NCBI RefSeq assembly: GCF_003095655.1 | Contig: NZ_CP029151.1 | Span: 1,735,001-1,799,000 of the forward strand | Direction: 5' to 3' | Source: Dokdonia sp. Dokd-P16 | GTDB lineage: Bacteria > Bacteroidota > Bacteroidia > Flavobacteriales > Flavobacteriaceae | Length of the DNA: 64,000 nucleotides | Part shown: in pieces, positions 39,647 through 60,500 of the stretch | Numbering within the stretch: position 1 is the first letter of the stretch | Layout: every line of letters starts with the position of its first letter | The notes under the pieces: generated by a model | Told to the model about the DNA's origin: nothing | Databases searched by the model: none | The model's input: only the letters and a program-made list of their open reading frames with translations | Made by a program: the position numbers and the translations under genes

Positions 39647-39677
39647 ACAAAAGGCTTCCTATATGGAAGCCTTTTGT
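39647..39677. terminator. Bidirectional terminator of mutS and the tRNA-Leu cassette
   Basis: A perfect 13-bp stem (ACAAAAGGCTTCC and its complement) with loop TATAT, T-rich on both strands. The same hairpin recurs at 40017-40044 and 41809-41834, each time directly behind a tRNA-Leu 3' end or its copy. Confidence 0.88.
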
Positions 39678-39716
39678 ACTCGAGACGGGTCCCGATAGCT
39701 ATCGGGATGAACCCGT
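39677..39716 (-). other. tRNA-Leu 3'-end copy with palindrome in the T-loop, no. 1
   Basis: On the minus strand it reads ACGGGTTCA, then TCCCGATAGCTATCGGGA (39690-39707, perfect 18-bp palindrome), then CCCGTCTCGAGTACA. The outer parts are identical to the T-arm, acceptor strand and following bases of tRNA-Leu at 41836-41919, in which only AGT stands between them. It starts at the stop codon of GIY-YIG copy 1. Confidence 0.85.
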
Positions 39717-39997
39717 TACTTGTATTTTTGAATTAGTTTTTGTGCTATTTCTTCGTGTTTTTTGATATTTACAAAGTATGTCGTGCTTTTCATACTCTTG
39801 ATGTGTTTTTCGATACTCCGTGCTTGTTGATATTCTAAATTGGTTATTTCAAAAAATATTTCCCAATCTTGAGTTCTGGCAGTAAATCCTTTGTATTTGT
39901 TAGATATGTGTTCTTGTATTCTTTGTGCTAGGTCTAAGCAACTACCTATGTAGTATTGATTAATCTTTTTAGAATAAAGTATGTAGACGGTTGCCAT
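39716..39997 (-). CDS. Small GIY-YIG endonuclease-domain protein, intact copy
   Basis: A 93-residue protein consisting only of a GIY-YIG domain: the first strand VYILYS (4-9), YYIGS (15-19) with the second half motif, the catalytic-type Arg26 in QRIQEH, and a helical C-terminal part rich in Lys. The length and motifs are those of the UPF0213/YhbQ-like group. Family members are nicking or cutting endonucleases, or of unknown activity. It lies behind tRNA-Leu on the same strand, ends within the tRNA 3'-end copy, and is a near duplicate of the interrupted gene in unit 2. A role in moving or duplicating the unit is inferred. Confidence 0.85.
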   Translation of the reverse strand: MATVYILYSKKINQYYIGSCLDLAQRIQEHISNKYKGFTARTQDWEIFFEITNLEYQQARSIEKHIKSMKSTTYFVNIKKHEEIAQKLIQKYK

Positions 39998-40016
39998 GGT
40001 TGAAATATATGAAAAT

Positions 40017-40044
40017 AAAAAAGGCCTCCTAATGGAAGCCTTTT
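40017..40044 (-). terminator. Hairpin behind tRNA-Leu 3'-end copy 2
   Basis: AAAAGGCCTCC / GGAAGCCTTTT with loop TAAT and one C-A mismatch, T-run on the minus strand. A diverged copy of the hairpin behind the real tRNA-Leu. Confidence 0.7.
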
Positions 40045-40045
40045 G

Positions 40046-40085
40046 TACTCGAGACGGGTCCCGATAGCTATCGGGATGAACCCGT
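40046..40085 (-). other. tRNA-Leu 3'-end copy with palindrome in the T-loop, no. 2
   Basis: Same arrangement as copy 1, with TCCCGATAGCTATCGGGA at 40059-40076 between the two halves of the T-arm. It starts at the stop codon of the interrupted GIY-YIG gene. Confidence 0.85.
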
Positions 40086-40302
40086 TACTTATATTTTTGA
40101 ACTAGTTTTTGTGCTATTTCTTTATGTTTTTTGATATTCACTAAGTATGTTGTGCTTTTCATACTCTTGATGTGTTTTTCGATGCTCCGAGCTTGTTGAT
40201 ATTCTAAATTGGTTATTTCAAAAAATATCTCCCAATCTAGAGCTCTAGTAGTAAACCCTTTGTATCTGTTTGTTGCGTGTTCTTTTATTCTTTGGTCTAA
40301 GT

Positions 40303-40310
40303 CTAAACAA
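40303..40310. repeat. Left 8-bp target site duplication of the IS
   Basis: CTAAACAA, identical to 41724-41731. The uninterrupted GIY-YIG copy has a single equivalent CTAAGCAA. Confidence 0.92.
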
Positions 40311-40374
40311 GGATCATTCTCAAAAGTTGTGTGTGAATTGGATAATTTTTAGATTTTTGTAATAAAGCCTAGCC

Positions 40375-40728
40375 TTGGACAACTATCTAGAATTACTAAA
40401 ACTCATTCTCCCAGAATTTCTCATTAACCACTTCGATCTGGTCAGAAACACCAAGAATGGTGAAGTAATGCATCTTTATTTTGAGGAGCGTAACGAGACT
40501 CCAAAAGAAGAATATATCCGCATACTTATTGCACACGGTTTTCACAAAGAGGTCACGATTCAAGATTTTCCTCTACGTGGCAATACTGTTTATCTCCACG
40601 TAAAGCGACGCAGGTGGATTGACAAGCAAACCAAAGAGATAGTTCAAAGAGACTGGAACCTAGTAGCACAGGGAACACGGATGACCGCCGAGTTTGCTGA
40701 TTTTTTAAAAGAAATTAGTCAATACTAG
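40375..40728 (+). CDS. IS transposase, N-terminal reading frame
   Basis: A 117-residue protein from TTG 40375 (MDNYLELLKLILPEFL) to TAG 40728. It matches the N-terminal regions of ISAon1-type transposases, with a helix-turn-helix-like DNA-binding part and the segment HVKRRRWIDKQTKEIVQRDW near 75-94. It ends DFLKEISQY. A run TTTTTTAAAAG (40701-40711) near the end could let ribosomes slip; the following frame is displaced by +1. Fusion by slippage to the next frame, or a separate DNA-binding product, are both possible. Confidence 0.8.
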   Translation: MDNYLELLKLILPEFLINHFDLVRNTKNGEVMHLYFEERNETPKEEYIRILIAHGFHKEVTIQDFPLRGNTVYLHVKRRRWIDKQTKEIVQRDWNLVAQGTRMTAEFADFLKEISQY

Positions 40729-41701
40729 AGCCTCGGACTGTCATACTATCGGGCGTTTTTATGGCGTTAATGGAAAGAAGCTACAGCGCCAGTACAAAGA
40801 TTATCTAAGTGACTTTAAAAACTGGGATCAAAAGAAGCACGCAAAACAGTACCTGATTTTTCCAGAGAATATAGGACCTTACTTATCTATAGACGAGACC
40901 GCATTATCCAAAGGAGAACTCTATACGATTATTACCAATAAAAAAGCCAAAGGAAAGAAAGGCAGTATTGTTGCCATCTTCAAGGGAACAAAAGCAGAAC
41001 CAATCATAGCACAACTGCTGAAAATATCTGCTAAGAAAAGAGCCAAGGTAATAGAGATAACCCTTGATATGGCTAACACTATGAAAACTATTTGTAAAAA
41101 ATGTTTCCCGAAAGCTATACAGGTTACAGACCGATTCCATGTACAAAAACTAGCACTAGAGGCGCTACAAGACATTCGTGTCAAACATAGATGGGAAGCA
41201 ATAGACCTAGAGAATGAAAACATAAAACTAGCACGAGTCAACAACACACCCCATCAACCTGAAATCTTTGAAAATGGTGATACCAGAAAGCAGCTTTTAG
41301 CAAGAAGTAGATATCTACTTTATAAAGCACCCAGCAAATGGACAAAAAATCAACACCACAGAAGTAAAGTTCTCTTCAAGGAATATCCAGATATAAAAAC
41401 TGCATTTAATCTAGTACAAGGTCTAATAAATATCTTTAATACAGGAAGATCAATAGAAACAGCATATACCAAATTAGCACACTGGTACAGTGACGTCGAA
41501 AAAACAGGTTACAAAGCATTTAATTCAATCGTAAACACGATAAGCCTTAACTATAGATCAATATTAAACTACTTTATAAATAGAAGCACAAACGCGTCAG
41601 CAGAATCATTCAATGCGAAAATCAAGGCGTTTAGAGCTCAATTTAGAGGTGTGAAAAATGTAGAATTCTTTCTTTATAGATTAACAACAATATTTGCATA
41701 A
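40709..41701 (+). CDS. IS transposase, DDE catalytic reading frame
   Basis: This frame is open from 40709 to TAA 41701 (330 codons) and has no good start codon at its head; the first ATG (41069) would lose the first catalytic Asp. The ISL3-type triad is visible: Asp in LSIDETALSKGELY, Asp in QVTDRFHVQKLALEAL and Glu in NASAESFNAKIKAFR. Conserved sequence begins at about 40733 (DCHTIGRFYGV), just behind the stop of the first frame, so the active protein is probably made by +1 frameshifting. The stop codon touches the right inverted repeat. Confidence 0.82.
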   Translation, partial: KKLVNTRASDCHTIGRFYGVNGKKLQRQYKDYLSDFKNWDQKKHAKQYLIFPENIGPYLSIDETALSKGELYTIITNKKAKGKKGSIVAIFKGTKAEPIIAQLLKISAKKRAKVIEITLDMANTMKTICKKCFPKAIQVTDRFHVQKLALEALQDIRVKHRWEAIDLENENIKLARVNNTPHQPEIFENGDTRKQLLARSRYLLYKAPSKWTKNQHHRSKVLFKEYPDIKTAFNLVQGLINIFNTGRSIETAYTKLAHWYSDVEKTGYKAFNSIVNTISLNYRSILNYFINRSTNASAESFNAKIKAFRAQFRGVKNVEFFLYRLTTIFA

Positions 41702-41723
41702 ACACAACAATTGGTCTTGATCC

Positions 41724-41731
41724 CTAAACAA
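41724..41731. repeat. Right 8-bp target site duplication of the IS
   Basis: CTAAACAA, the partner of 40303-40310. Confidence 0.92.
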
Positions 41732-41808
41732 CTACCTATGTAGTATCTATTAATCTTTTTAGAATAGAGTATGTAGACGGTTGCCATGGTTGAAATATAT
41801 GAAAATTA

Positions 41809-41834
41809 AAAAGGCTTCCTAGTGGAAGCCTTTT
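41809..41834 (-). terminator. Hairpin behind tRNA-Leu
   Basis: AAAAGGCTTCC / GGAAGCCTTTT, loop of 4, T-rich on the minus strand. It stands between tRNA-Leu and the interrupted GIY-YIG gene, so it may limit read-through into the unit. Confidence 0.75.
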
Positions 41835-41835
41835 G

Positions 41836-41919
41836 TACTCGAGACGGGACTTGAACCCGTACGTCCTAATGGACATTGGATTTTAAGTCCAACGTGTCTA
41901 CCAATTCCACCACTCGAGC
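41836..41919 (-). tRNA. tRNA-Leu (anticodon UAA)
   Basis: An 84-base class II tRNA: acceptor GCTCGAG/CTCGAGT (G1-U72 as in E. coli tRNA-Leu UAA), D-arm GTGGAATTGGTAGACAC, anticodon loop CTTAAAA, variable arm GTCCATTAGGAC, T-arm ACGGG-TTCAAGT-CCCGT, discriminator A. CCA is not encoded. It is the source of the 3'-end copies downstream. Confidence 0.95.
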
Positions 41920-41958
41920 ATTTTCACTTACGTGAAAAATTGGTATTTATTTTTATAC

Positions 41959-41972
41959 GCTTTCGCGAAAGC
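41959..41972. repeat. Palindrome GCTTTCGCGAAAGC, copy 13
   Basis: Exact copy between the two tRNA genes, inside the presumed tRNA precursor. Confidence 0.95.
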
Positions 41973-41990
41973 GTTATAATTTCAAACTAG

Positions 41991-42595: not shown

Positions 42596-45500
42596 ATGGG
42601 AAAAATTACTATTCCTTCCGGACAGATTGAAAAGTTGCAATTGTCAATTATCTCAAAAAAGATAATTGTCCTAATTGTGGTATTTGGTTGTTTTACATCT
42701 TCCTTGTATGGTCAATGTGTGGGTACTGCTACAGATTGTGATGGTGATCTGGTGTCTAATACTCTGGATGAAGATGATGATAATGATGGGATTTTGGATA
42801 CTTTAGAGTGTCCATTTGTCGTTCCTACTGGTGGTGCAGTGCAGTCTGATGCAGTTTATTATACTAATGATGATGGTGTTCAGTTCTTTGCTATTGCAGG
42901 AAACACAAATGGATTAGGTTACTCCGAATCTGGATGGGATGTTTCTGTAACTAATACAGGTGCAACAATACAATCCGATTTAAATTTTTCTAATACAACG
43001 TTCTCAATTGGCTCTGTCTCTGGTTCAAATGATGCAGTAGATCCGGTTGCAAATAATTATAATGTTGCTTCTACAACAAATGCTTCTTTTATTTCTGGAG
43101 CAAGTGGGTCTGGATTGTCAATTGAGCCTGGAAGAGCTAATTTAGAAGGAGATAGTGACCTAGAGTTTTCAACTTTTATAAACTTTACCACGCCTGTTTA
43201 TGCTTTTGGGTTTGATTTAATTGATTTTATGGATCATGGTGCAGGTAATTATATTGATACTTGGCAGATTTATGTTGGTGGTGTTCTTTCTTACCAAATA
43301 GGTCCTGCTATTTCTGTTACTGCTGGTAATACCGGAACTTTTTCAGTTTTTGACGGTCAAGGAAATTCATTAGGTACTATTTTAGCAGGAGAAAATGTCG
43401 AATCCTTTTTTGGGTTTATTAGTATTACGCCTGTTTCTCAAGTAGAAATAAAAAGAAATTCAGTTTATAGTGGTGCTGGTGCTCCTGGGGAAGATTTTCA
43501 TGGTATTGATAGTTTTAGATTTACTACAGATGTTCCTTTTGATACAGATAATGATGGTATTGCAAATTGTTTTGATTTAGATAGTGATGGTGATGGTTGT
43601 AGTGATGTTTTAGAGTCTGGTGGATTAGATCCTGATGGAGATGGAGTACTTGGTGTACTGCCAACAACTGTTGATGGTGCTGGCCGTGTCACAGGTTCTG
43701 GGTCGGTAGCTGGAGGTTATAATGGGCTTAGTGGAAATGAGTTGAATGCGGTGCAAGTTAATGTTGCTGCTGGCAACCCTATGGATCAAAGTGTGTTTGA
43801 AGGTGATCCTGTGAGCTTTACAGTGTCAGCTAGCGCAGATGAAGCCACGTTTTATACCGGTGGTTCACCTACTTATAGTGTTCCTGGTAATGCAGATGGA
43901 GGTTTAAGCTATCAATGGTATATAGGTGATCCAGATGTTTCAGGAGTGCCTATTGCTCCTGGAGATACTAATTATAGTGGTGCAGACACAAATACGTTAA
44001 CAGTTAATGACTCTTCTGGATTAAACAATACTGAATTTTTTGTTATTGTTAGTCATGATGAAAATGTGTGTGTGTCCGAAAATAGATCGGCAGTGTTAAC
44101 ATTTCTTCCAGATCCGTGTGATGCACTAGCATCCGGAAATCCAGATAATGATGCTGATGGTATAAGTGATGTTTGTGATCTTGATGATGATAATGATGGT
44201 ATTTTAGATACAGTAGAAGAACGATGTGATCAACCTAATCTTGCAAACTCAAATGAAGGTACAGGTAACTTCCAAGATCAATTGTATATTTTTGATTGGT
44301 CTAGTATTGGAGGAACTTTAAATAATGGAGATACACAAACCTTTACGGTTAATGATTTAGAAATAACGGCTACTTTTTCTAATGTTGTTGTAAACGGAAC
44401 TGGAACTCAATCAATAGATACAAATGATTTAAATACTTTTGAATCTCCAACATTTGGTCAGTCTTTAATAAATTTATTATACAATACTCCAGGAAGTGCA
44501 GAAGCACTTTATGGAAATGTAGATACACAAGATTTTTCTTTTACAGTGGAATTCACTGCATTAAAAAACGGGATCCCTTATCCTTTAGATATTATTGCCA
44601 TTGATGCAGAAGCTACTACTCCTATCAACCAAGGTAATGGTCCAGAAACAATTTCTTTCCAAACTAATGGAGGTGATTGGACATTTTTAGAATCAATCCT
44701 TACAGGAGTATCACCAGGACAGTTTAATGTAAATAACCAAACTTTAGATGTTTTAGGAACTTATGATTTAGAAGGAAATGGTAATAGTTTGTATTTTTCA
44801 AAAAACACAACATCAATTGATGTGTCAGTTGAAAGTCCAGGTACAGCACAACAAGCTGTTGCTTTTGCTATTTACTTACGATGTGACTCAGATAATGATG
44901 GTATTATAAACTCCTTTGATTTAGATTCAGATAACGACTTATGTAATGACGTTTTAGAGTCTAGTGGATTAGATCCTAATGGTGATGGACGTTTAGGAGC
45001 GTTGCCTACTACTGTTAATAGTGATGGGCTTGTTACAGGAAGTTCTCCTGCAACGGGAGGCTATGATGGTGCAAGCGGAAATGAAATTGTAGCAACACAA
45101 GTTAATGTTACAGCAATGGAACCTGCCGACCAAACGGCTACAACAGGTGAGTCTGCTACGTTTACAATTACGGCAACAGCAGATAATTCGACTGGATTTA
45201 CAGCAGGTGTTCCAGATTACGGAACTCCTGGAAATGCAAATGCCGGAATAAACTATATGTGGTACATAGGTGATCCAGATACATCAGGAACTCTTATTAC
45301 TGCAGCCGATACTAATTATAGTGGGGAAAATACGGATTCATTAATAGTAAATGATGTAACAGGTTTAGGTGGTACAGAATATTTTGTTGTCATTACACAC
45401 GATGATAATGTGTGTTTTACAGAAACACGTTCAGCCACGCTTACTATTGCGCAGGCTGATGTGAGTATTGATAAAGTATTGGTTGATAGTAGTCCTTACG

Positions 45501-48500
45501 TAGTGGGGGGTACAGTGACTTATACATTAACAGTAAGTAATGCAGGTCCAGATGAAGCAACTAATGTTGTAGTTACAGATATTCCTGAAAATTTGACAAT
45601 TACAAATGTTTCGGATGGTTGTACTGCATTGCCTTGTACTATAGCAAGTATTGCTGCTGGAGTTGCCAATAATGTGACAATAACAGTTGAAGCAACAATT
45701 GATAGTGAGGGAGTCTTCTCAAATGGTGCTACTGTACAAGCAGATCAAGATGATCCGAATACTGCCAATAATCAAGATTTATCAACAGATGCAAATAATC
45801 AAGGAGCAGTTCCTAGTGTTCCACCAGTGGTACAAAATGATGTAAGTGCTCCGAGTACTCCAGGAGCTACAGTAAGTTTAGATCCAACCGCCGATAATGG
45901 TTTTGGAATAGATGATGATGCTGACGGTACATTAGATGTTACGAGCGTGAGCTTAGTAGTTCCAGCTGGATCTACGATGGTACAAACGGATGCAGATGGC
46001 GATATTATTGGGTACACAGTTCCTGGTGAAGGAGTTTGGGAAGTTAATCCTGTAAACGGTGAGATTAGTTTTGCACCAGTAGCTGGTTTTAATGATGATC
46101 CAACATCTCCTGCCACTTATACAATAGATGATAATGCGGGTAATACTTCTAATCAGGCTACAGTAACAATTGATTATGTTTCTGTTGCAACGGTAGATGA
46201 GATTACTGGCGTTATGCCTGGCATGGATGCTGTAATTGATGTATTAGCAAATGATGTTGATGGTGACCTTGTTGATCCTACTACAGTAATGATAATAGAC
46301 CCAGCAAATCCGGGAGTTCCCGTGACAAGTTTGGTAGAGCCTGGTGTAGGAGTATGGACTGTCGATCCTTCAAGCGGAGTGATTACGTTCGCACCTTGTA
46401 CTGCAGCCGGAGTTCCAGATGCTAGTTGTACAGGATTATTTGAAGGTAGTCCGATGGATATTATGTACGTAGTAGCAGATGATGAAGGGAATGTTTCTGA
46501 TCCTGCTACAGTAAGTGCAGCTTATGCTGTTCCACCAGTAGCACAAAATGATGTAAGTACTCCGAGTACACCTGGAGCTACGGTAAGCGTAGATCCAACC
46601 GCTGATAATGGTTTTGGTGTAGATGCCGATCCTGATGGAACTTTGGATGTAACGACTGTGAGTTTAGTAGTTCCAGCTGGAGCAACGATGGTACAGACGG
46701 ATGCAGACGGTGATATTATAGGATACACAGTACCTGGTGAAGGCGCTTGGGAAGTTAATCCTGTAACTGGTGAGATTAGTTTTGCACCAGAAGCTGGTTT
46801 TAACGATGATCCAACAAATCCTGCTAGTTATACGATAGATGATAATGATGGTAACCCATCGAATGTAGCTACTGTAACAATTGATTATGTTCCTGTTGCA
46901 ACGGTAGATGAGATTACTGGCGTTATGCCTGGCATGGATGCTGTAATTGATGTATTAGCAAATGATGTCGATGGTGACCTTGTTGATCCTACTACAGTAA
47001 TGATAATAGATCCTGCAAATCCGGGAGTTCCTGTGACAAGTTTGGTAGAGCCTGGAGTAGGAGTATGGACTGTCGATCCTTCAAGCGGAGCGATTACGTT
47101 CGCACCTTGTACTGCAGCCGGAGTTCCAGATGCTAGTTGTACAGGATTATTTGAAGGTAGTCCGATGGATATTATGTACGTAGTAGCAGATGATGAAGGG
47201 AATGTTTCTGATCCTGCTTCAGTAAGTGCAGCTTATGCTGTTCCACCAGTAGCACAAAATGATGTAAGTACTCCGAGTACACCTGGGGCTACGGTAAGTG
47301 TAGATCCAACCGCTGATAATGGTTTTGGTGTAGATGCCGATCCTGATGGTACTTTGGATGTAACGACTGTGAGTTTAGTAGTTCCAGCTGGAGCAACGAT
47401 GGTACAGACGGATGCAGACGGTGATATTATAGGATACACAGTACCTGGTGAAGGCGCTTGGGAAGTTAATCCTGTAACTGGTGAGATTAGTTTTGCACCA
47501 GAAGCTGGTTTTAACGATGATCCAACAAATCCTGCTAGTTATACGATAGATGATAATGATGGTAACCCATCGAATGTAGCTACTGTAACAATTGATTATG
47601 TTCCTGTTGCAACGGTAGATGAGATTACTGGCGTTATGCCTGGCATGGATGCTGTAATTGATGTATTAGCAAATGATGTTGATGGGGATCTTGTTGATCC
47701 TACTACAGTAATGATAATAGACCCAGCAAATCCGGGAGTTCCCGTGACAAGTTTGGTAGAGCCTGGAGTAGGAGTATGGACTGTCGATCCTTCAAGCGGA
47801 GCGATTACGTTCGCGCCTTGTACTGCAGCCGGAGTTCCAGATGCTAGTTGTACAGGATTATTTGAAGGTAGTCCGATGGATATTATGTACGTAGTAGCAG
47901 ATGATGAAGGGAATGTTTCTGATCCTGCTACAGTAAGTGCAGCTTATGCTGTTCCACCAGTAGCACAAAATGATGTAAGTGCTCCGAGTACACCTGGGGC
48001 TACGGTAAGCGTAGATCCAACAGCTGATAATGGTTTTGGAGTTGATGCCGATCCTGATGGTACTTTAGATGTAACGACTGTGAGTTTAGTAGTTCCAGCT
48101 GGAGCAACGATGGTACAGACGGATGCAGACGGTGATATTATAGGATACACAGTACCTGGTGAAGGCGCTTGGGAAGTTAATCCTGTAACTGGTGAGATTA
48201 GTTTTGCACCAGAAGCTGGTTTTAGCGATGATCCAACAAATCCTGCTAGATATACGATAGATGATAATGATGGTAACCCATCGAATGTAGCTACAGTAAC
48301 AATTGATTATGTTCCTGTTGCAACGGTAGATGAGATTACTGGCGTTATGCCAGGCATGGATGCTGTAATTGATGTATTAGCAAATGATGTTGATGGGGAT
48401 CTTGTAGATCCTACTACAGTGATGATAATAGACCCAGCAAATCCGGGAGTTCCTGTGACAAGTTTGGTAGAGCCTGGAGTAGGAGTATGGACTGTTAATC

Positions 48501-51500
48501 CTTCAAGCGGAGTGATTACGTTCGCACCTTGTACTGCAGCCGGAGTTCCAGATGCTAGTTGTACAGGATTATTTGAAGGTAGTCCGATGGATATTATGTA
48601 CGTAGTAGCAGATGATGAAGGGAATGTTTCTGATCCTGCTACAGTAAGTGCAGCTTATGCTGTTCCACCAGTAGCTCAAAACGATGAGAGTTTAGCAAAT
48701 ACACCTGGTGCCACGGTAAGTTTAGATCCCACCGCTGATAATGGTTTTGGTGTAGATGCCGATCCTGATGGAACTTTAGATGTAACGACTGTGAGTTTAG
48801 TAGTTCCAACTGGAGCTACAATGGTACAGACCGATGCAGACGGTGATATTATTGGATATACAGTTCCTGGGGAAGGAGTTTGGGAAGTTAATCCTATAAC
48901 TGGTGAGATTAGTTTTGCACCAGAAGCTGGTTTTAACGATGATCCAACAAATCCTGCTAGTTATACGATAGATGATAATGATGGTAACCCATCAAATGTA
49001 GCTACTGTAACAATTGATTATGTTCCTGTTGCAACAGTAGATGAGATTACTGGCGTTATGCCAGGCATGGATGCTGTAATTGATGTATTAGCAAATGATG
49101 TTGATGGGGATCTTGTAGATCCTACTACAGTGATGATAATAGACCCAACAAATCCGGGAGTTCCTGTGACAAGTTTGGTAGAGCCTGGAGTAGGAGTATG
49201 GACTGTTAATCCTTCAAGCGGAGTGATTACGTTCGCACCTTGTACTGCAGCCGGAGTTCCAGATGCTAGTTGTACAGGATTATTTGAAGGTAGTCCGATG
49301 GATATTATGTACGTAGTAGCAGATGATGAAGGCAATGTTTCTGATCCTGCTACAGTAAGTGCAGCTTTTGCTGTTCCACCAGTAGCACAAAACGATGAGA
49401 GTTTAGCAAATACACCTGGAGCTACGGTAAGCGTAGATCCAACCGCTGATAATGGTTTTGGTGTAGATGCCGATCCTGATGGAACTTTAGATGTAACGAC
49501 TGTGAGTTTAGTAGTTCCAGCTGGAGCAACAATGGTACAGGTGGATTCAGACGGAGATATTATAGGATACACAGTACCTGGGGAAGGAGTTTGGGAAGTT
49601 AATCCTGTAACTGGTGAGATTAGTTTTGCACCAGAAGCTGGTTTTAATGATGATCCAACAGATCCTGCTAGTTATACTATAGATGATAATGATGGTAACC
49701 CATCAAATGTAGCTACTGTAACAATTGATTATGTTCCTGTTGCAACAGGAGATGAGATTACTGGCGTTATGCCAGGCATGGATGCTGTAATTGATGTATT
49801 AGCAAATGATGTTGATGGGGATTTTGTAGATCCTACTACAGTGATGATAATAGACCCAGCAAATCTGGGAGTTCCTGTGACAAGTTTGGTAGAGCCTGGA
49901 GTAGGAGTATGGACTGTTGATCCTTCAAGCGGAGCGATTACGTTCGCACCTTGTACTGCAGCCGGAGTTCCAGATGCTAGTTGTACAGGATTATTTGAAG
50001 GTAGTCCGATGGACATTATGTACGTAGTAGCAGATGATGAAGGGAATGTTTCTGATCCTGCAACAGTAAGTGCAGCTTATGCTGTTCCACCAGTAGCTCA
50101 AAACGATGAGAGTTTAGCAAATACGCCAGGTGCAACGGTAAGTTTAGATCCAACCGCTGATAATGGTTTTGGTGTAGATGCCGATCCTGATGGAACTTTA
50201 GATGTGACGACTGTGAGCTTAGTAGTTCCAACTGGAGCTACAATGGTACAGACGGATGCAGACGGTGATATTATAGGATATACAGTTCCTGGTGAAGGAG
50301 TTTGGGAAGTTAATCCTGTAACTGGTGAGATTAGTTTTGCACCATTAGCTGGTTTTAATGATGATCCAACGAATCCTGCTAGTTATACCATAGATGATAA
50401 TGATGGTAACCCATCAAATGCAGCTACCGTAACGATTGATTATGTTCCTGTTACAACCTTAGATGAGAGTGCAGGTAATGACTCTGGTCTTCCAGTAGTG
50501 GTAGATGTACTTGGTAATGATATTGATGGAGATATAGTAGATCCAACCACTGTACAGATTGTAGGTACTTCAAATCCTGGCGATGACTTAGTGGTTGTCG
50601 GTGAGGGAACTTGGAGTGTTGATCCAGTAAGTGGAGCTATTAGGTTTACACCTTGTACGGTAGTTTCTTTACCTGATTGTCCTGAGATTTTCACAGCAGA
50701 CCCTACGGATATTGAGTATGTGGTTGCGGATGACGAAGGTAATGTTTCAGATCCTGCAAGTGTAAGTGTGAGTTTTGTTCCAGAACCACCAGTTGCGATG
50801 GATAATGCTAGTAATAATAATATGACTGGTGATCCAGTGATTATTGATGTTGCATTAAATGATATGGATCCTGATGGTACTTTAGATTTGACGACTGTTC
50901 AGATCGTTGGTACTGCTAATCCTGGTGATGATTTAGTAGAGCCTGGCGTAGGAGTTTGGAGTGTTGATCCAGTAAGTGGAGCCATTACTTTTACACCTTG
51001 TAGCGCAGCAGGAGTTCCTGATGCTAGTTGTGTTGGAGTATCTACCCAAGATCCACAAGACATTACTTATACAATAAATGATAATGATGGTAATGTATCT
51101 AATGCAGCTACGGTATCTGTGATGTATGATGCAGAGCCACCAGTAGCACAAAACGATGAGAGTTTAGCAAATACACCTGGTGCAACGGTAAGTTTAGATC
51201 CAACCGCTGATAATGGTTTTGGTGTAGATGCAGATCCTGATGGAACTTTAGATGTAACGACTGTGAGCTTAGTAGTTCCAACTGGAGCTACAATGGTACA
51301 GACGGATGCAGATGGCGATATTATAGGATATACAGTTCCTGGCGAAGGAGTTTGGGAAGTTAATCCTGTAACTGGTGAGATTAGTTTTGCACCATTAGCT
51401 GGTTTTAATGATGATCCAACGAATCCTGCTAGTTATACCATAGATGATAATGATGGTAACCCGTCAAATGCAGCTACCGTAACGATTGATTATGTTCCTG

Positions 51501-54500
51501 TTGCAACCTTAGATGAGAGTGCAGGTAATGACTCTGGTCTTCCAGTAGTGGTAGATGTACTTGCCAATGACGTTGATGGAGACATAGTAGATCCAACCAC
51601 GGTACAGATTGTAGGTACTTCAAATCCTGGCGATGACTTAGTGGTTGTCGGTGAGGGAACTTGGAGTGTTGATCCAGTAAGTGGAGCTATTACGTTTACT
51701 CCTTGTACGGTAGTTTCTTTACCTGATTGTCCTGAGATTTTCACAGCAAACCCTACGGATATTGAGTATGTGGTTGCGGATGACGAAGGTAATGTTTCAG
51801 ATCCTGCAAGTGTAAGTGTGAGTTTTGTTCCAGAACCACCAGTTGCGATGGATAATGCTAGTAATAATAATATGACTGGTGATCCAGTGATTATTGATGT
51901 TGCATTAAATGATATGGATCCTGATGGTACTTTAGATTTGACGACTGTTCAGATCGTTGGTACTGCTAATCCTGGTGATGATTTAGTAGAGCCTGGCGTA
52001 GGAGTTTGGAGTGTTGATCCAGTAAGTGGAGCCATTACTTTTACACCTTGTAGCGCAGCAGGAGTTCCTGATGCTAGTTGTGTTGGAGTATCTACCCAAG
52101 ATCCACAAGACATTACTTATACAATAAATGATAATGATGGTAATGTATCTAACGCAGCTACGGTATCTGTGATGTATGATGCAGAGCCACCAGTAGCACA
52201 AAACGATGAGAGTTTAGCAAATACACCTGGTGCAACGGTAAGTCTAGATCCAACCGCTGATAATGGTTTTGGTGTAGATGCCGATCCTGATGGAACTTTA
52301 GATGTAACGACTGTGAGCTTAGTAGTTCCAACTGGAGCTACAATGGTACAGACGGATGCAGATGGCGATATTATAGGATATACAGTTCCTGGCGAAGGAG
52401 TTTGGGAAGTTAATCCTGTAACTGGTGAGATTAGTTTTGCACCATTAGCTGGTTTTAATGATGATCCAACGAATCCTGCTAGTTATACCATAGATGATAA
52501 TGATGGTAACCCATCAAATGCAGCTACCGTAACGATTGATTATGTTCCTGTTACAACCTTAGATGAGAGTGCAGGTAATGACTCTGGTCTTCCAGTAGTG
52601 GTAGATGTACTTGGTAATGATATTGATGGAGATATAGTAGATCCAACCACTGTACAGATTGTAGGTACTTCAAATCCTGGCGATGACTTAGTGGTTGTCG
52701 GTGAGGGAACTTGGAGTGTTGATCCAGTAAGTGGAGCTATTAGGTTTACACCTTGTACGGTAGTTTCTTTACCTGATTGTCCTGAGATTTTCACAGCAGA
52801 CCCTACGGATATTGAGTATGTGGTTGCGGATGACGAAGGTAATGTTTCAGATCCTGCAAGTGTAAGTGTGAGTTTTGTTCCAGAACCACCAGTTGCGATG
52901 GATAATGCTAGTAATAATAATATGACTGGTGATCCAGTGATTATTGATGTTGCATTAAATGATATGGATCCTGATGGTACTTTAGATTTGATGACTGTTC
53001 AGATCGTTGGTACTGCTAATCCTGGTGATGATTTAGTAGAGCCTGGCGTAGGAGTTTGGAGTGTTGATCCAGTAAGTGGAGCCATTACTTTTACACCTTG
53101 TAGCGCAGCAGGAGTTCCTGATGCTAGTTGTGTTGGAGTATCTACCCAAGATCCACAAGACATTACTTATACAATAAATGATAATGATGGTAATGTATCT
53201 AATGCAGCTACGGTATCTGTGATGTATGATGCAGAGCCACCAGTAGCACAAAACGATGAGAGTTTAGCAAATACACCTGGTGCAACGGTAAGTTTAGATC
53301 CAACCGCTGATAATGGTTTTGGTGTAGATGCAGATCCTGATGGAACTTTAGATGTAACGACTGTGAGCTTAGTAGTTCCAACTGGAGCTACAATGGTACA
53401 GACGGATGCAGATGGCGATATTATAGGATATACAGTTCCTGGCGAAGGAGTTTGGGAAGTTAATCCTGTAACTGGTGAGATTAGTTTTGCACCATTAGCT
53501 GGTTTTAATGATGATCCAACGAATCCTGCTAGTTATACCATAGATGATAATGATGGTAACCCGTCAAATGCAGCTACCGTAACGATTGATTATGTTCCTG
53601 TTTCAACCTTAGATGAGAGTGCAGGTAATGACACTGGTCTTCCAGTAGTGATAGATGTACTTGGTAATGATATTGATGGAGACGTAGTAGATCCAACCAC
53701 GGTACAGATTGTAGGTACTTCAAATCCTGGCGATGACTTAGTGGTTGTCGGTGAGGGAACTTGGAGTGTTGATCCGGTAAGTGGAGCCATTACGTTTACA
53801 CCTTGTACGGTAGTTTCTTTACCTGATTGTCCTGAGATTTTCACAGCAGACCCTACCGATATTGAGTATGTGGTTGCGGATGACGAAGGTAATGTTTCAG
53901 ATCCTGCAAGTGTAAGTGTGAGTTTTGTTCCAGAACCACCAGTTGCGATGGATAATGCTAGTAATAATAATATGACTGGAGATCCAGTGATAATTGATGT
54001 TGCATTAAATGATATGGATCCTGATGGTACTTTAGATTTGACAAGTGTTCAAATCGTTGGTACTGCTAATCCTGGAGATGATTTAGTAGAGCCTGGCGTA
54101 GGAGTTTGGAGTGTTGATCCAGTAAGTGGAGCAATTACTTTTACACCTTGTAGCGCAGCAGGAGTTCCTGATGCTAGTTGTGTTGGAGTATCTACCCAAG
54201 ATCCACAAGACATTACTTATACAATAAATGATAATGATGGTAATGTATCTAACGCAGCTACGGTATCTGTGATGTATGATGCAGAGCCACCAGTAGCTCA
54301 AAATGATGAGAGTTTAGCAAATACACCTGGTGCAACGGTAAGTTTAGATCCAACCGCTGATAATGGTTTTGGTGTAGATGCCGATCCTGATGGAACTTTA
54401 GATGTAACGACTGTGAGCTTAGTAGTTCCAACTGGAGCTACAATGGTACAGACGGATGCAGATGGCGATATTATAGGATATACAGTTCCTGGCGAAGGAG

Positions 54501-57500
54501 TTTGGGAAGTTAATCCTGTAACTGGTGAGATTAGTTTTGCACCATTAACAGACTTTAATGATGATCCAACAAGTCCTGCTAGTTATACCATAGATGATAA
54601 TGATGGTAACCCATCAAATGCAGCTACCGTAACGATTGATTACGTTCCTGTTGCAACCTTAGATGAGAGTGCAGGTAATGACTCTGGTCTTCCAGTAGTG
54701 ATAGATGTACTTGCAAATGATGTTGATGGAGACATAGTAGATCCAACCACGGTACAGATTGTAGGTACTTCAAATCCTGGCGATGACTTAGTGGTTGTCG
54801 GTGAGGGAACTTGGAGTGTTGATCCAGTAAGTGGAGCCATTACGTTTACTCCTTGTACGGTAGTTTCTTTACCTGATTGTCCTGAGATTTTCACAGCAGA
54901 CCCTACCGATATTGAGTATGTGGTTGCGGATGACGAAGGTAATGTTTCAGATCCTGCAAGTGTAAGTGTGAGTTTTGTTCCAGAACCACCAGTTGCGATG
55001 GATAATGCTAGTAATAATAATATGACTGGTGATCCAGTGATAATTGATGTTGCATTAAATGATATGGATCCTGATGGTACTTTAGATTTGACAAGTGTTC
55101 AAATCGTGGGTACTGCTAATCCTGGTGATGATTTAGTAGAGCCTGGCGTAGGAGTTTGGAGTGTTGATCCAGTAAGTGGAGCAATTACTTTTACACCTTG
55201 TAGCGCAGCAGGAGTTCCTGATGCTAGTTGTGTTGGAGTATCTACCCAAGATCCACAAGACATTACTTATACAATAAATGATAATGATGGTAATGTATCT
55301 AACGCAGCTACGGTATCTGTGATGTATGATGCAGAGCCACCAGTAGCTCAAAATGATGAGAGTTTAGCAAATACACCTGGTGCAACGGTAAGTTTAGATC
55401 CAACCGCTGATAATGGTTTTGGTGTAGATGCCGATCCTGATGGTACTTTAGATGTAACGACTGTGAGCTTAGTAGTTCCAGATGGAGCTACGATGGAGGT
55501 GCTTGATGCAGATGGTGATATTATAGGGTATACAGTTCCTGGAGAAGGCGCTTGGGAAGTGAGTGAAACAACGGGTCAAATTAGCTTTATACCAGAAGCT
55601 GGTTTTAATGATGATCCAACGAATTCTGCTAGTTATACCATAGATGATAATGATGGTAACCCATCAAATGCAGCTACCGTAACGATTGATTATGTTCCTG
55701 TTGCAACCTTAGATGAGAGTGCAGGTAATGACTCTGGTCTTCCAGTAGTGGTAGATGTACTAGCCAATGACATTGATGGAGATATAGTAGATCCAACCAC
55801 GGTACAGATTGTAGGTACTTCAAATCCTGGCGATGACTTAGTGGTTGTCGGTGAGGGAACTTGGAGTGTTGATCCAGTAAGTGGAGCCATTACGTTTACT
55901 CCTTGTACGGTAGTTTCTTTACCTGATTGTCCTGAGATTTTCACAGCAGACCCTACCGATATTGAATATGTGGTTGCGGATGACGAAGGTAATGTTTCAG
56001 ATCCTGCAAGTGTAAGTGTGAGTTTTGTTCCAGAACCACCAGTTGCGATGGATAATGCTAGTAATAATAATATGACTGGTGATCCAGTGATTATTGATGT
56101 TGCATTAAATGATATGGATCCTGATGGTACTTTAGATTTGACGACTGTTCAGATCGTTGGTACTGCTAATCCTGGTGATGATTTAGTAGAGCCTGGCGTA
56201 GGAGTTTGGAGTGTTGATCCAGTAAGTGGAGCAATTACTTTCACCCCTTGTAGCGCAGCAGGAGTTCCTGATGCTAGTTGTGTTGGAGTATCTACCCAAG
56301 ATCCACAAGACATTACTTATACAATAAATGATAATGATGGTAATGTATCTAACGAAGCTACGGTATCTGTGATGTATGATGCAGAGCCACCAGTAGCACA
56401 AAACGATGAGAGTTTAGCAAATACACCTGGTGCAACGGTAAGTCTAGATCCAACCGCTGATAATGGTTTTGGTGTAGATGCCGATCCTGATGGAACTTTA
56501 GATGTAACGACTGTGAGCTTAGTAGTTCCAACTGGAGCTACAATGGTACAGACGGATGCAGATGGCGATATTATAGGATATACAGTTCCTGGCGAAGGAG
56601 TTTGGGAAGTTAATCCTGTAACTGGTGAGATTAGTTTTGCACCATTAACAGGCTTTAATGATGATCCAACGAATCCTGCTAGTTATACCATAGATGATAA
56701 TGATGGTAACCCGTCAAATGCAGCTACCGTAACGATTGATTACGTTCCTGTTGCAACCTTAGATGAGAGTGCAGGTAATGACTCTGGTCTTCCAGTAGTG
56801 ATAGATGTACTTGCAAATGATGTTGATGGAGACATAGTAGATCCAACTACGGTACAGATTGTAGGTACTTCAAATCCTGGCGATGACTTAGTGGTTGTCG
56901 GTGAGGGAACTTGGAGTGTTGATCCGGTAAGTGGAGCTATTAGGTTTACACCTTGTACGGTAGTTTCTTTACCTGATTGTCCTGAGATTTTCACAGCAGA
57001 CCCTACGGATATTGAGTATGTGGTTGCGGATGACGAAGGTAATGTTTCAGATCCTGCAAGTGTAAGTGTGAGTTTTGTTCCAGAACCACCAGTTGCGATG
57101 GATAATGCTAGTAATAATAATATGACTGGTGATCCAGTGATTATTGATGTTGCATTAAATGATATGGATCCTGATGGTACTTTAGATTTGACGACTGTTC
57201 AAATCGTAGGTACTGCTAATCCTGGTGATGATTTAGTAGAGCCTGGCGTAGGAGTTTGGAGTGTTGATCCAGTAAGTGGAGCCATTACTTTCACACCTTG
57301 TAGCGCAGCAGGAGTTCCTGATGCTAGTTGTGTTGGAGTATCTACCCAAGATCCACAAGACATTACTTATACAATAAATGATAATGATGGTAATGTATCT
57401 AATGCAGCTACGGTATCTGTGATGTATGATGCAGAGCCACCAGTAGCACAAAACGATGAGAGTTTAGCAAATACACCTGGTGACACGGTAAGTTTAGATC

Positions 57501-60500
57501 CAACCGCTGATAATGGTTTTGGTGTAGATGCAGATCCTGATGGAACTTTAGATGTAACGACTGTGAGCTTAGTAGTTCCAGCTGGAGCCCTAGACGTTGC
57601 TATTGATGCTAATGGAGACGTAACTGGTTACACAGTACCAGGAGAAGGGTCTTGGCAGGTGAATCCAATTACTGGTACAATAAGCTTTATTCCATTAGCT
57701 GGATTTAATGAGGATCCAACTTCGCCTGCTAGTTATACGATAGACGATAATGATGGTAACCCATCAAATATAGCTACCGTAACGGTGGATTACGTTCCTG
57801 TTGCAACTGCCGATGTAAGTGCAGATAATACAACTGGTCTTCCAGTAGTGATAGATGTACTTGCAAATGATGTTAATGGGGATGTTGTAGATCCATCGAC
57901 GGTACAGATTGTTGGTACAACAAATCCTGGTGATGACCTAGTTGAACCTGGAGTAGGAGTTTGGAGTGTAGACCCAGTAACGGGTACAATTACTTTTACA
58001 CCTTGTACTGCTGCTGGCATTCCAGATGCTACTTGTACAGGATTATCTGTAGAAGATCCAGCACCTATCGCTTATACAGTAATGGATAATGATGGGAATA
58101 TAAGTGATCCAGCAGAGGTTTCTGTTTCTTTTGACGAATGTAATGGACAAGGACTTGGAGATTGTGATGGTGATGGTGTTTCAAATGATGATGAAGTAAA
58201 TGGTGGTACTGATCCTAACGATCCTTGTTCTTATAATGCTATAGATCAAGATTTAACTATCGTTACAAATGAATGGAATAGTATTGATTGTGATATGGAT
58301 GGTCTTACTAACAATGAAGAGACTACAGGAATCGATGATCCTTCAACTCCAAATGATCCAAATGGTAATACAACAGATCCACAAAATCCAGACACGGATG
58401 GTGACGGTGTAACAGATGGTGATGAAGCTGGAGATATGACAGATCCTAATGATCCTTGTGCTCTTGAGATAGCTAGTCAGACAGTTACTCCTACAATGGC
58501 ATGGAATGATCTTGATTGTGATATGGATGGGTTAAATAACGGTGAGGAACTTACTGGAATCGATGATCCAACAACTCCTGGAGATCCAAATGGTAATATT
58601 ACAGACCCATTAGATATTGATACTGATGGTGATGGTGTAACAGATGGTCAAGAAGCTCTTGATGGTACAGATCCTAATGATAACTGTAGTCTAGTAGTAG
58701 CAAATCAGACAGAAACGACTGATGCTGCTTATAACAGTGCAGATTGTGATATGGATGGTCTTACTAACAATGAGGAGACTACGGGAATCGATGATCCTTC
58801 AACTCCAAATGATCCAAATGGTAATACAACAGATCCACAAAATCCAGACACGGATGGTGACGGTGTAACAGATGGTGATGAAGCTGGAGATATGACAGAT
58901 CCTAATGATCCTTGTGCTCTTGAGATAGCTAGTCAGACAGTTACTCCTACAATGGCATGGAATGATCTTGATTGTGATATGGATGGGTTAAATAACGGTG
59001 AGGAACTTACTGGAATCGATGATCCAACAACGCCTGGAGATCCAAATGGTAATATTACAGACCCATTAGATATTGATACTGATGGTGATGGTGTAACAGA
59101 TGGTCAAGAAGCTCTTGATGGTACAGATCCTAATGATAACTGTAGTTTAGTAGTAGCAAATCAGACAGAAACGACTGATGCTGCTTATAACAGTGCAGAT
59201 TGTGATATGGATGGTCTTACTAACAATGAGGAAACTACAGGAATCGATGATCCTTCAACTCCAAATGATCCAAATGGTAATACAACAGATCCACAAAATC
59301 CAGACACGGATGGTGACGGTGTAACAGATGGTGATGAAGCTGGAGATATGACAGACCCTAATGATCCTTGTGCTCTTGAGATAGCTAGTCAGACAGTTAC
59401 TCCTACAATGGCATGGAATGATCTTGATTGTGATATGGATGGGTTAAATAACGGTGAGGAACTTACTGGAATCGATGATCCAACAACTCCTGGAGATCCA
59501 AATGGTAATATTACAGACCCATTAGATATTGATACTGATGGTGATGGTGTGACAGATGGTCAAGAAGCTCTTGATGGTACAGATCCTAATGATAACTGTA
59601 GTTTAGTAGTAGCAAATCAGACAGAAACGACTGATGCTGCTTATAACAGTGCAGATTGTGATATGGATGGTCTTACTAACAATGAGGAGACTACAGGAAT
59701 CGATGATCCTTCAACTCCAAATGATCCAAATGGTAACACAACAGATCCACAAAATCCAGATACGGATGGTGACGGTGTAACAGATGGTGATGAAGCTGGA
59801 GATATGACAGATCCTAATGATCCTTGCGATTTACAAGTAAGTAGTCAATCTGTAGATCCTTCTCAGATGTGGAATGATCTTGATTGTGACCTTGATGGAT
59901 TAACTAATGCAGAAGAAATCACTGGAACAGATGATCCTGATACTCCTGCAGATCCTAATGGTAATACAACAGATCCTACTAACCCTGATACAGATGGTGA
60001 CGGAGTTTCTGATGGTGATGAAGCAGAAGATAAAACAGACCCTAACAGTCCATGTGATTTCTTAATAGATAGTGTTACACTACCTATGGATACTGATTTT
60101 GCTAGCCTTGATTGTGATGGCGATGGTGTAACTAATGCAGACGAAATAGCAGATGGTACAGATCCATTTGATGTTTGTGATTTAGTAGCAGATAGCCAGA
60201 CTGTAACAACAACAGCAGAGTTTAACAATGCAGATTGTGACAACGATGGGTTAACTAATGAGGAAGAGATTACTGGAATAGATAATCCGCTTACTCCTTC
60301 AGATCCTAACGGTAACACTACAGATCCTACTAATCCTGATACAGATGGAGATGGCGTATTAGACGGTAGAGAGGCATTAGACGGTACAGACCCTAATAAC
60401 TCTTGTAGTTTAGAAGTAGGTAGCCAGACACTTGCTGCTAGTCAAGAATTCCTTGATGGAGATTGTGACGGTGACGGTATTCTAAACGGTGAAGAACTAG

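Follow-up and report, generated by a model that had tools for sequence, protein, structure and literature searches.

What kind of genetic element consists of one small nuclease gene and a broken copy of the end of the tRNA gene beside it? The question is raised by a 64,000-nucleotide stretch of DNA from Dokdonia sp. Dokd-P16 (Flavobacteriaceae; contig NZ_CP029151.1, positions 1,735,001 to 1,799,000), which as a whole is called the window here. On the 3' side of tRNA-Leu(UAA) lie two tandem units of 369 bp each, in which a GIY-YIG gene stands between a terminator hairpin and a copy of the T-arm and acceptor strand of the tRNA; unit 1 is interrupted by an insertion sequence (IS) of the ISL3 family (PF01610, E 2.7e-39). 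In both tRNA copies, the T-loop bases AGT are swapped for an 18-bp palindrome, TCCCGATAGCTATCGGGA: on the plus strand the tRNA reads GACGGG-ACT-TGAACCCG, and each copy reads GACGGG, then the palindrome, then TGAACCCG. With up to three mismatches allowed, the palindrome is present twice in the window (Table 1), compared to a mean of 0.00 in shuffled sequence (n = 100). Successive acceptor/T-arm copies are spaced by 369 bp and then by 1790 bp; subtracting 1421 bp from the latter (the IS plus one 8-bp CTAAACAA target repeat) again leaves 369. All three tRNA ends are followed by the terminator hairpin, and the TAA stop codon of the GIY-YIG gene adjoins the copied T-arm. This two-unit arrangement, first described in a sequence-only reading of the same DNA, is confirmed by the sequence, by ARAGORN and by the spacing. 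Because the GIY-YIG copies of the two units are 89.2% identical over 222 bp, i.e. ∼11% divergent, a fresh tandem duplication in the Dokd-P16 genome is unlikely.

We propose that the cassette belongs to a phylum-wide family of minimal selfish elements, specialized on tRNA genes, in which a GIY-YIG nuclease is the only protein and an intact tRNA is left in place. We put the probability of this reading at roughly 0.58. Seen directly are the linkage to tRNA genes, nuclease subfamilies that follow the identity of the target, insertion polymorphism, tandem stacking, and an intact tRNA accompanied by a spare copy that a hairpin breaks.

The layout of cassette and tRNA recurs at many tRNA genes across the Bacteroidota. 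A profile built from seven nucleases, searched against genome contigs, gave at least 304 relatives, the best 80 of which were analyzed (79 from Bacteroidota and 1, L147, from Chlorobiota). Linkage was scored in a range that ran from 700 bp before the gene to 500 bp behind it. An intact tRNA on the same strand was found at 67 of the 80 loci and one on the opposite strand at none, compared to 6 tRNAs in 449 kb elsewhere in the same loci. Among the 13 remaining loci, tRNA fragments are clear in 10, and L124 has 14-base matches on both sides; no convincing tRNA fragment was seen in L122 or L125. Nuclease matches were present in 29 of 120 genomes in a family sample (E 1e-5) and in 92 of 198 genomes in a phylum sample (E 1e-8). 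From the phylum sample, 20 loci, hand-picked for tandems and variety, were inspected for tRNA linkage. ARAGORN placed a tRNA at 18 of them, adding tRNA-Ser, Pro, Asp, Ala and Thr to Leu, Asn, Met and Val; no convincing hairpin copy could be aligned at two of these 20 loci (L235, L243). Tandem arrays reach five units, and some nuclease copies contain stops. The largest number of GIY-YIG matches among the 92 matching genomes is 16, in a 3.0-Mb genome (G189).

Within the genus, occupied and empty versions of the same site coexist. We searched the tRNA-Leu/tRNA-Gly stretch in 18 genomes, Dokd-P16 included, and recovered 16 orthologous loci (L158-L173), with short matches only in G130 and G131. A GIY-YIG gene lies within 1.5 kb at 4 of the 16 tRNA-Leu(UAA) loci (Dokd-P16, G123, G120 and G129), leaving 12 without. 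In 5 of these 12 genomes (G124, G127, G135, G126, G128), mutS directly follows tRNA-Leu, and the same gene lies beyond the cassette in Dokd-P16. Presence and absence at one site between relatives, as expected of a homing element, is illustrated by G123 and G124: G123 carries a single unit, with the tRNA end and terminator repeated on its two sides, and G124 carries none; their remaining differences are substitutions and short indels in the terminator and spacer. The unit spacing is 369 bp in G123 and 366 bp in G120, each with one unit. The sequence-only reading had proposed a selfish or homing-like cassette tied to tRNA genes that leaves a complete tRNA behind, and had named a lack of empty sites as evidence against itself; the tRNA linkage, the copies of tRNA ends and the empty sites support the proposal, and empty sites do exist.

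Movement between lineages is also hinted at in these genomes. Relative to the G123 unit, identity is 98.2% for the 3' piece of unit 1 (223 bp), 95.3% for its 5' piece (64 bp) and 89.7% for unit 2, compared to 94.6% for the 3' end of mutS, making a recent exchange involving unit 1 possible. Identity along the locus is patchy, with Dokd-P16 nearer to G124 upstream of the tRNAs (∼42.3-42.8 kb of the window) and nearer to G123 in the 3' half of mutS, a pattern that suggests exchange between lineages.

Duplication of a tRNA end is not confined to the 3' side. Of 102 loci with a tRNA label, 81 run from intact tRNA to gene (and on to a 3' tRNA copy, where seen), 16 have a 5' tRNA copy followed by the gene and an intact tRNA, and 5 were unassigned. 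The copy is truncated mostly on the side that faces the gene. Spare copies were scored for hairpins in 132 loci, which yielded 110 aligned, non-identical copies, loci without a scored copy being left out. A perfect stem of at least 6 bp occurs in 101 of the 110 copies compared to 28 of 110 intact tRNAs taken whole; the counts fall to 85 and 14 for stems of at least 7 bp and to 65 and 2 for stems of at least 8 bp. One caveat here is that the copies carried 25 extra bases that the intact tRNAs lacked, and that one intact tRNA may serve several copies. With this margin removed, 93 of 110 copies retain a stem of at least 6 bp, compared to 11% of shuffles.

Of 85 inserted hairpins, 60 touch an unpaired position of the cloverleaf, compared to 41.3 expected by random placement (sd 4.4, maximum 55 in 1000). 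They lie mostly in the T-loop of tRNA-Leu, in the variable region of many tRNA-Asn copies, in the anticodon arm of tRNA-Val and many tRNA-Met copies, and in the D-loop where the 5' piece of the tRNA is duplicated. The T-arm, which the sequence-only reading had taken to be the target, is hence one position among several. At the same site in different genomes, stems differ on both strands, e.g. CCCCGATAGCTATCGGGG versus CCCCGAAAGCTTTCGGGG in tRNA-Asn copies; therefore it is the fold, not the sequence, that is shared. Other lineages carry GC-rich hairpins of other sequence. An apparent decayed cassette was noted in G103 (L062, 1480-1850): a 5' tRNA-Leu copy bearing the palindrome in its D-loop precedes an intact tRNA-Leu, the stray 3' end of a tRNA lies beyond, and no GIY-YIG match is present.

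Is the palindrome itself a mark of the cassette? The sequence-only reading had proposed it as a cleavage site or junction; as a mark of the cassette it must be given up. There are 18 exact copies of TCCCGATAGCTATCGGGA in the Dokd-P16 genome, 15 of which lie in two arrays of repeats that resemble integron attC sites. The palindrome is found in 28 of the 120 family genomes, with up to 53 exact copies per genome and no matches for a reversed control, and its 16-base core is found in 19 of the 198 phylum genomes, all in the class of the window. No GIY-YIG gene lies within 1.5 kb at 37 of 39 partly overlapping palindrome loci, the other two both covering the window's own cassette. The palindrome can therefore be rejected as a signature of the cassette: it is dispersed, in attC-like arrays and other places, and other hairpins stand at many occupied loci elsewhere. 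The sequence-only reading had named the finding of palindrome and GIY-YIG gene away from tRNA ends as evidence against itself; this is what we see for the palindrome but not for the gene. TCCCGATAGCTATCGGGA is either a resident repeat or a favored hairpin, with no specificity for the cassette.

Dispersed copies show some preference for hairpin contexts. Twelve of 66 non-redundant copies lie between complementary flanks of at least 6 bp, compared to 2.5 expected, and the mean stem length exceeds that in all 2000 permutations; this is a preference, and a rule placing all dispersed palindromes in hairpin loops can be rejected. A GIY-YIG match is present in 14 of 28 palindrome-bearing family genomes versus 15 of 92 palindrome-free ones, a hand count in which kinship is uncontrolled and to which the cassette contributes its own palindromes. 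For these reasons, and because G088 (87% complete) lacks a GIY-YIG match in spite of its 53 palindromes, we did not use palindrome number as a read-out of nuclease activity. The core appears in no paper of the open-licence PubMed Central (PMC) literature searched. Several observations on these repeats stand by themselves. In G000:C1, attC-like repeats lie between small genes at 92-114 kb and 2582-2619 kb (L020, L022, L023); 22 of 25 matches to the 22-base core of the larger repeat (up to three mismatches) are in these arrays, and 15 attC-like repeats of this genome hold the 18-bp palindrome centrally. At L071, L063, L075, L056, L208 and L221, palindromes are nested in palindromes or lie between complementary flanks, some terminator-like, with stems up to 12 bp. 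The spacer between tRNA-Leu and tRNA-Gly (window ∼41940-41980) contains CGCTTTCGCGAAAGCG, apparently another dispersed palindrome and the source of many short extra same-genus matches among those listed.

To which tRNAs do the nucleases belong? We built a tree of 109 nucleases (105 different, some loci being taken twice from one genome), 102 of them labelled with a tRNA. For fifteen of these the label was assigned manually, from fragments or by choice, and the upstream tRNA was used where tRNAs lay on both sides; L044 is labelled Ser and shows a 5' tRNA-Pro copy. On this tree, tRNA identity changes 14 times, compared to a minimum of 8 and a shuffled mean of 51.5, with none of 200 shuffles as low. 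The clade of the window sits at tRNA-Leu genes with CAA, UAA, UAG and GAG anticodons, requiring 10 isoacceptor changes for 36 loci (minimum 3, shuffled mean 15.7). Only a few of these are imposed by well-supported (starred) branches, at least two for CAA and at least two for UAA. Identity of the tRNA is thus largely kept while the locus shifts.

The protein is a GIY-YIG superfamily member of 93 residues (PF01541, E 4.6e-9). Five positions are invariant in 20 sequences (Y5, Y16, G18, R26 and E63), and the Tyr, Arg and Glu of the GIY-YIG fold are catalytic. That the nuclease is kept is seen from these positions and from a dN/dS (ratio of nonsynonymous to synonymous substitution) of 0.17 between the genes of unit 2 and G123. 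The predicted model is a single small domain (predicted local distance difference test score 92.5). By sequence, the nearest solved structures are UPF0213 (E 6.3e-13) and SLX1 (2.8e-5), with I-TevI weaker (0.0063); Foldseek also ranks UPF0213 and Slx1 at the top, with no E-value below 0.001.

How might such an element spread? We infer that the nuclease initiates copying, either through a break in an empty tRNA allele or through action on the spare copy in its folded form. In the version that we prefer, the nuclease would break the unoccupied allele of its tRNA gene, in or beside the tRNA, and repair from the occupied allele would copy the cassette into the break. The spare tRNA copy would serve as the second homology arm, and the host gene would therefore be rebuilt, not destroyed. 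The hairpin would keep the spare copy from working as a tRNA or as a target of the nuclease, and each subfamily would stay with a single tRNA identity, be it Leu, Asn, Met, Val or another, free to move among isoacceptor loci. The constancy of tRNA identity across isoacceptor loci favors this version, to judge from the nuclease tree.

A number of points weigh against the selfish-element reading. A genuine difficulty is self-cutting. The 85-base tRNA-Leu is identical in all eight same-genus genomes compared, occupied and empty, and the terminator of G123 differs by only a few bases from those of empty G124, G127 and G135; therefore, if the tRNA sequence is what the nuclease cuts, the host that carries it should still be cut as well. 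In homing, insertion alters the target and renders the host immune, whereas here only the spare copy is altered, and these alignments argue against textbook homing immunity. A target reaching into the slightly variable terminator may escape the objection. In addition, gain and loss are inseparable at these sites, where recombination between the repeats would yield clean loss. The nuclease tree is weakly supported, stars marking 11 of its 102 inner branches, and near-copies make clustering easier for any label. Five of the 67 tRNA-bearing loci (L093, L098, L105, L120, L134) gave no aligned tRNA copy, two of them (L098, L105) ending at a contig edge; at L141 and L145 the best match is a second intact tRNA-Asn instead of a partial copy; 9 of 110 aligned copies lack a 6-bp stem; and ARAGORN found no tRNA at L236 and L238 among the 20 hand-picked loci. 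No relatives were found among phages, plasmids or viral contigs, and therefore no vehicle is known. Finally, the nuclease has no separate DNA-binding domain, the feature by which known site-specific GIY-YIG homing enzymes differ from it.

Some of these difficulties would disappear if the element were guided by structure. An SLX1-like nuclease, one that recognizes folded DNA, would then act on its own hairpin-bearing tRNA copy, present as a cruciform or single-stranded cloverleaf, and would free or break the cassette. The cassette would enter another copy of that tRNA gene through homology to the tRNA end and terminator; tRNA specificity would come from the homology arm, with no protein-DNA recognition. 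This accounts for a functional tRNA that needs no change, for hairpins whose sequence varies by lineage but which are present in nearly all copies (101 of 110), and for a single-domain nuclease nearer to UPF0213 and SLX1 than to I-TevI in sequence, with UPF0213 and Slx1 also leading the (weak) structural matches. Both the single small domain and the closeness to SLX1 favor action on the folded spare copy. On the other hand, this explanation by itself leaves unaccounted for the one tRNA identity per clade in the face of isoacceptor shifts, and such hairpins are also found where no GIY-YIG gene is near. We regard it as the strongest competitor, albeit unlikely. A broader form is slightly more doubtful still: throughout the phylum, a class of tiny mobile elements would rely on a single GIY-YIG protein of 80-95 residues that acts on folded DNA, with the tRNA cloverleaf and planted hairpins as the address, allowing invasion by DNA shape and homology with neither an integrase nor a long recognition sequence, and the palindromes scattered over bacterial genomes may arise as by-products of this chemistry.

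The nuclease might instead be useful to the cell. A tRNA-linked host gene for repair, tRNA dosage or defense, with the tRNA copies as by-products of tandem duplication, would fit the wide spread of the family (92 of 198 phylum genomes, linkage having been inspected at 20 loci). It would also fit the purifying selection seen in the dN/dS of 0.17 between the genes of unit 2 and G123; two further dN/dS comparisons were saturated and not used. However, a host gene would hardly be expected to occupy just 4 of the 16 orthologous loci of the genus, to carry stops or an IS in some copies, to sit at several isoacceptor loci or to form arrays of 3 to 5 units. We consider this improbable. Least credible, and already disfavored, is an old locus duplicated in tandem, with common palindromic repeats landing by chance in leftover tRNA pieces: tandem units do exist and TCCCGATAGCTATCGGGA is widely scattered (18 exact copies in Dokd-P16, 28 of 120 family genomes, 12 of 66 copies between complementary flanks versus 2.5 expected), but empty sites lie beside occupied ones, exact palindromes number at most 53 per family-sample genome and yet hairpins fill 101 of 110 copies, nuclease subfamilies are tRNA-specific, and other lineages have hairpins of unrelated sequence.

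The features of the locus are collected in Table 1. Next to the tRNAs, at window positions 42596-60871, lies a repetitive reading frame of 6091 residues, whose alignment with two same-genus genomes is patchy.

Table 1. Features of the tRNA-Leu(UAA) locus of Dokdonia sp. Dokd-P16, in window coordinates
Feature	Position	Strand	Basis or detail
Functional tRNA-Leu(UAA)	41835..41919	-	ARAGORN
Terminator hairpin, first copy (of the tRNA)	41809..41834	-	sequence
Unit 1 GIY-YIG gene, 5' piece, split by IS	41724..41787	-	match E 1.7e-6
ISL3-family IS inside unit 1 GIY-YIG gene	40311..41723	+	open reading frames 40375-40728, 41069-41701
IS-flanking 8-bp CTAAACAA repeats	40303-40310 and 41724-41731		
Unit 1 GIY-YIG gene, 3' piece	40085..40310	-	
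Unit 1 tRNA-Leu T-arm and acceptor copy	40046..40084	-	palindrome 40059-40076 replacing AGT
Terminator hairpin copy behind unit 1	40019..40044	-	
Unit 2 intact single-domain GIY-YIG nuclease, 93 residues	39716..39997	-	PF01541 E 4.6e-9
Unit 2 tRNA-Leu T-arm and acceptor copy	39677..39715	-	palindrome 39690-39707
Unit 2 terminator hairpin copy, then native sequence before mutS	39649..39675	-	

Taken together, the evidence points to a type of minimal selfish element that has not been described before and by which the invaded gene is spared. If so, it would be among the smallest autonomous selfish elements, unnamed so far despite its spread through a phylum. By leaving its targets intact, it would spare genes that are the most conserved in the cell, and its subfamilies would be tied to tRNA identities. 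Its small nucleases, whose targets can be predicted, would form a large natural collection. Some tRNA-like fragments and orphan "GIY-YIG nuclease" annotations would also find an explanation, and it would become testable how a nuclease lives on an essential gene without harm to its host.

How does the cassette compare with known systems? No description of GIY-YIG cassettes with tRNA copies in Bacteroidota was found in the open-licence PMC literature, as judged by titles and abstract openings. Group I introns and inteins depend on splicing, whereas the tRNA beside the cassette is contiguous and complete, and the NCBIfam model for group I intron endonucleases scores 26 bits, well under its cut-off of 56.05. 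UPF0213/YhbQ and SLX1 nucleases are the closest solved relatives of the protein domain, and are not known to reside in tRNA-linked cassettes. Repetitive extragenic palindromes (REPs) are small and dispersed, some of them near a nuclease gene, and flank the Y1 HUH transposase known as RAYT (REP-associated tyrosine transposase). The cassette differs in that the unit contains no Y1/HUH transposase, its protein is a GIY-YIG nuclease, and 37 of 39 palindrome loci have no GIY-YIG gene nearby. Tyrosine-integrase elements in tRNA genes rebuild the 3' end of the tRNA and displace the old end; the cassette likewise presents a rebuilt tRNA with a direct repeat of its 3' end. It is set apart from these elements by the lack of an integrase (no open reading frame of at least 60 residues is present in the unit besides the GIY-YIG and IS ones), with a GIY-YIG nuclease as the only protein, and by the hairpin in the displaced copy and the existence of a 5'-side version.

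Two systems resemble it in other ways. SegB and other freestanding GIY-YIG homing endonucleases of T-even phages lie near tRNA genes, with no apparent isotype preference, and are thought to cut tRNA-containing DNA and drive recombination, according to the excerpted part of the source (PMC13096335). These are phage genes, and the same excerpts do not mention hairpin-bearing partial tRNA copies, rebuilt tRNAs or chromosomal arrays (PMC13096335). In fungal mitochondria, mobile open reading frames (mORFs) carry a replacement C-terminus of the host gene (Allomyces atp6, Rhizopus atp9 and Glomus atp6, atp9, cox2 and nad3). As excerpted, this work describes an endonuclease gene (GIY-YIG in Glomus atp9) near the 3' end of a gene, with a new end brought in and the old one left downstream, much as in the cassette (PMC3630166). 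The differences are that mORFs invade mitochondrial protein genes, that the two ends are clearly different (63.5% nucleotide identity in Glomus atp6) and that the old end lies ∼1000 bp off, with no mention in the excerpts of a hairpin-broken copy or chromosomal arrays (PMC3630166). The cassette hence shares with mORFs an endonuclease gene together with a replacement gene end, in layout only; its new end does not differ from the displaced native one, tRNA-Leu being the same in occupied and empty genomes. Divergence of the new end in mORFs has a role in resisting cleavage. Unlike mORFs, the cassette lives on bacterial chromosomal tRNA genes, spans ∼370 bp, leaves its target unchanged and can duplicate either end.

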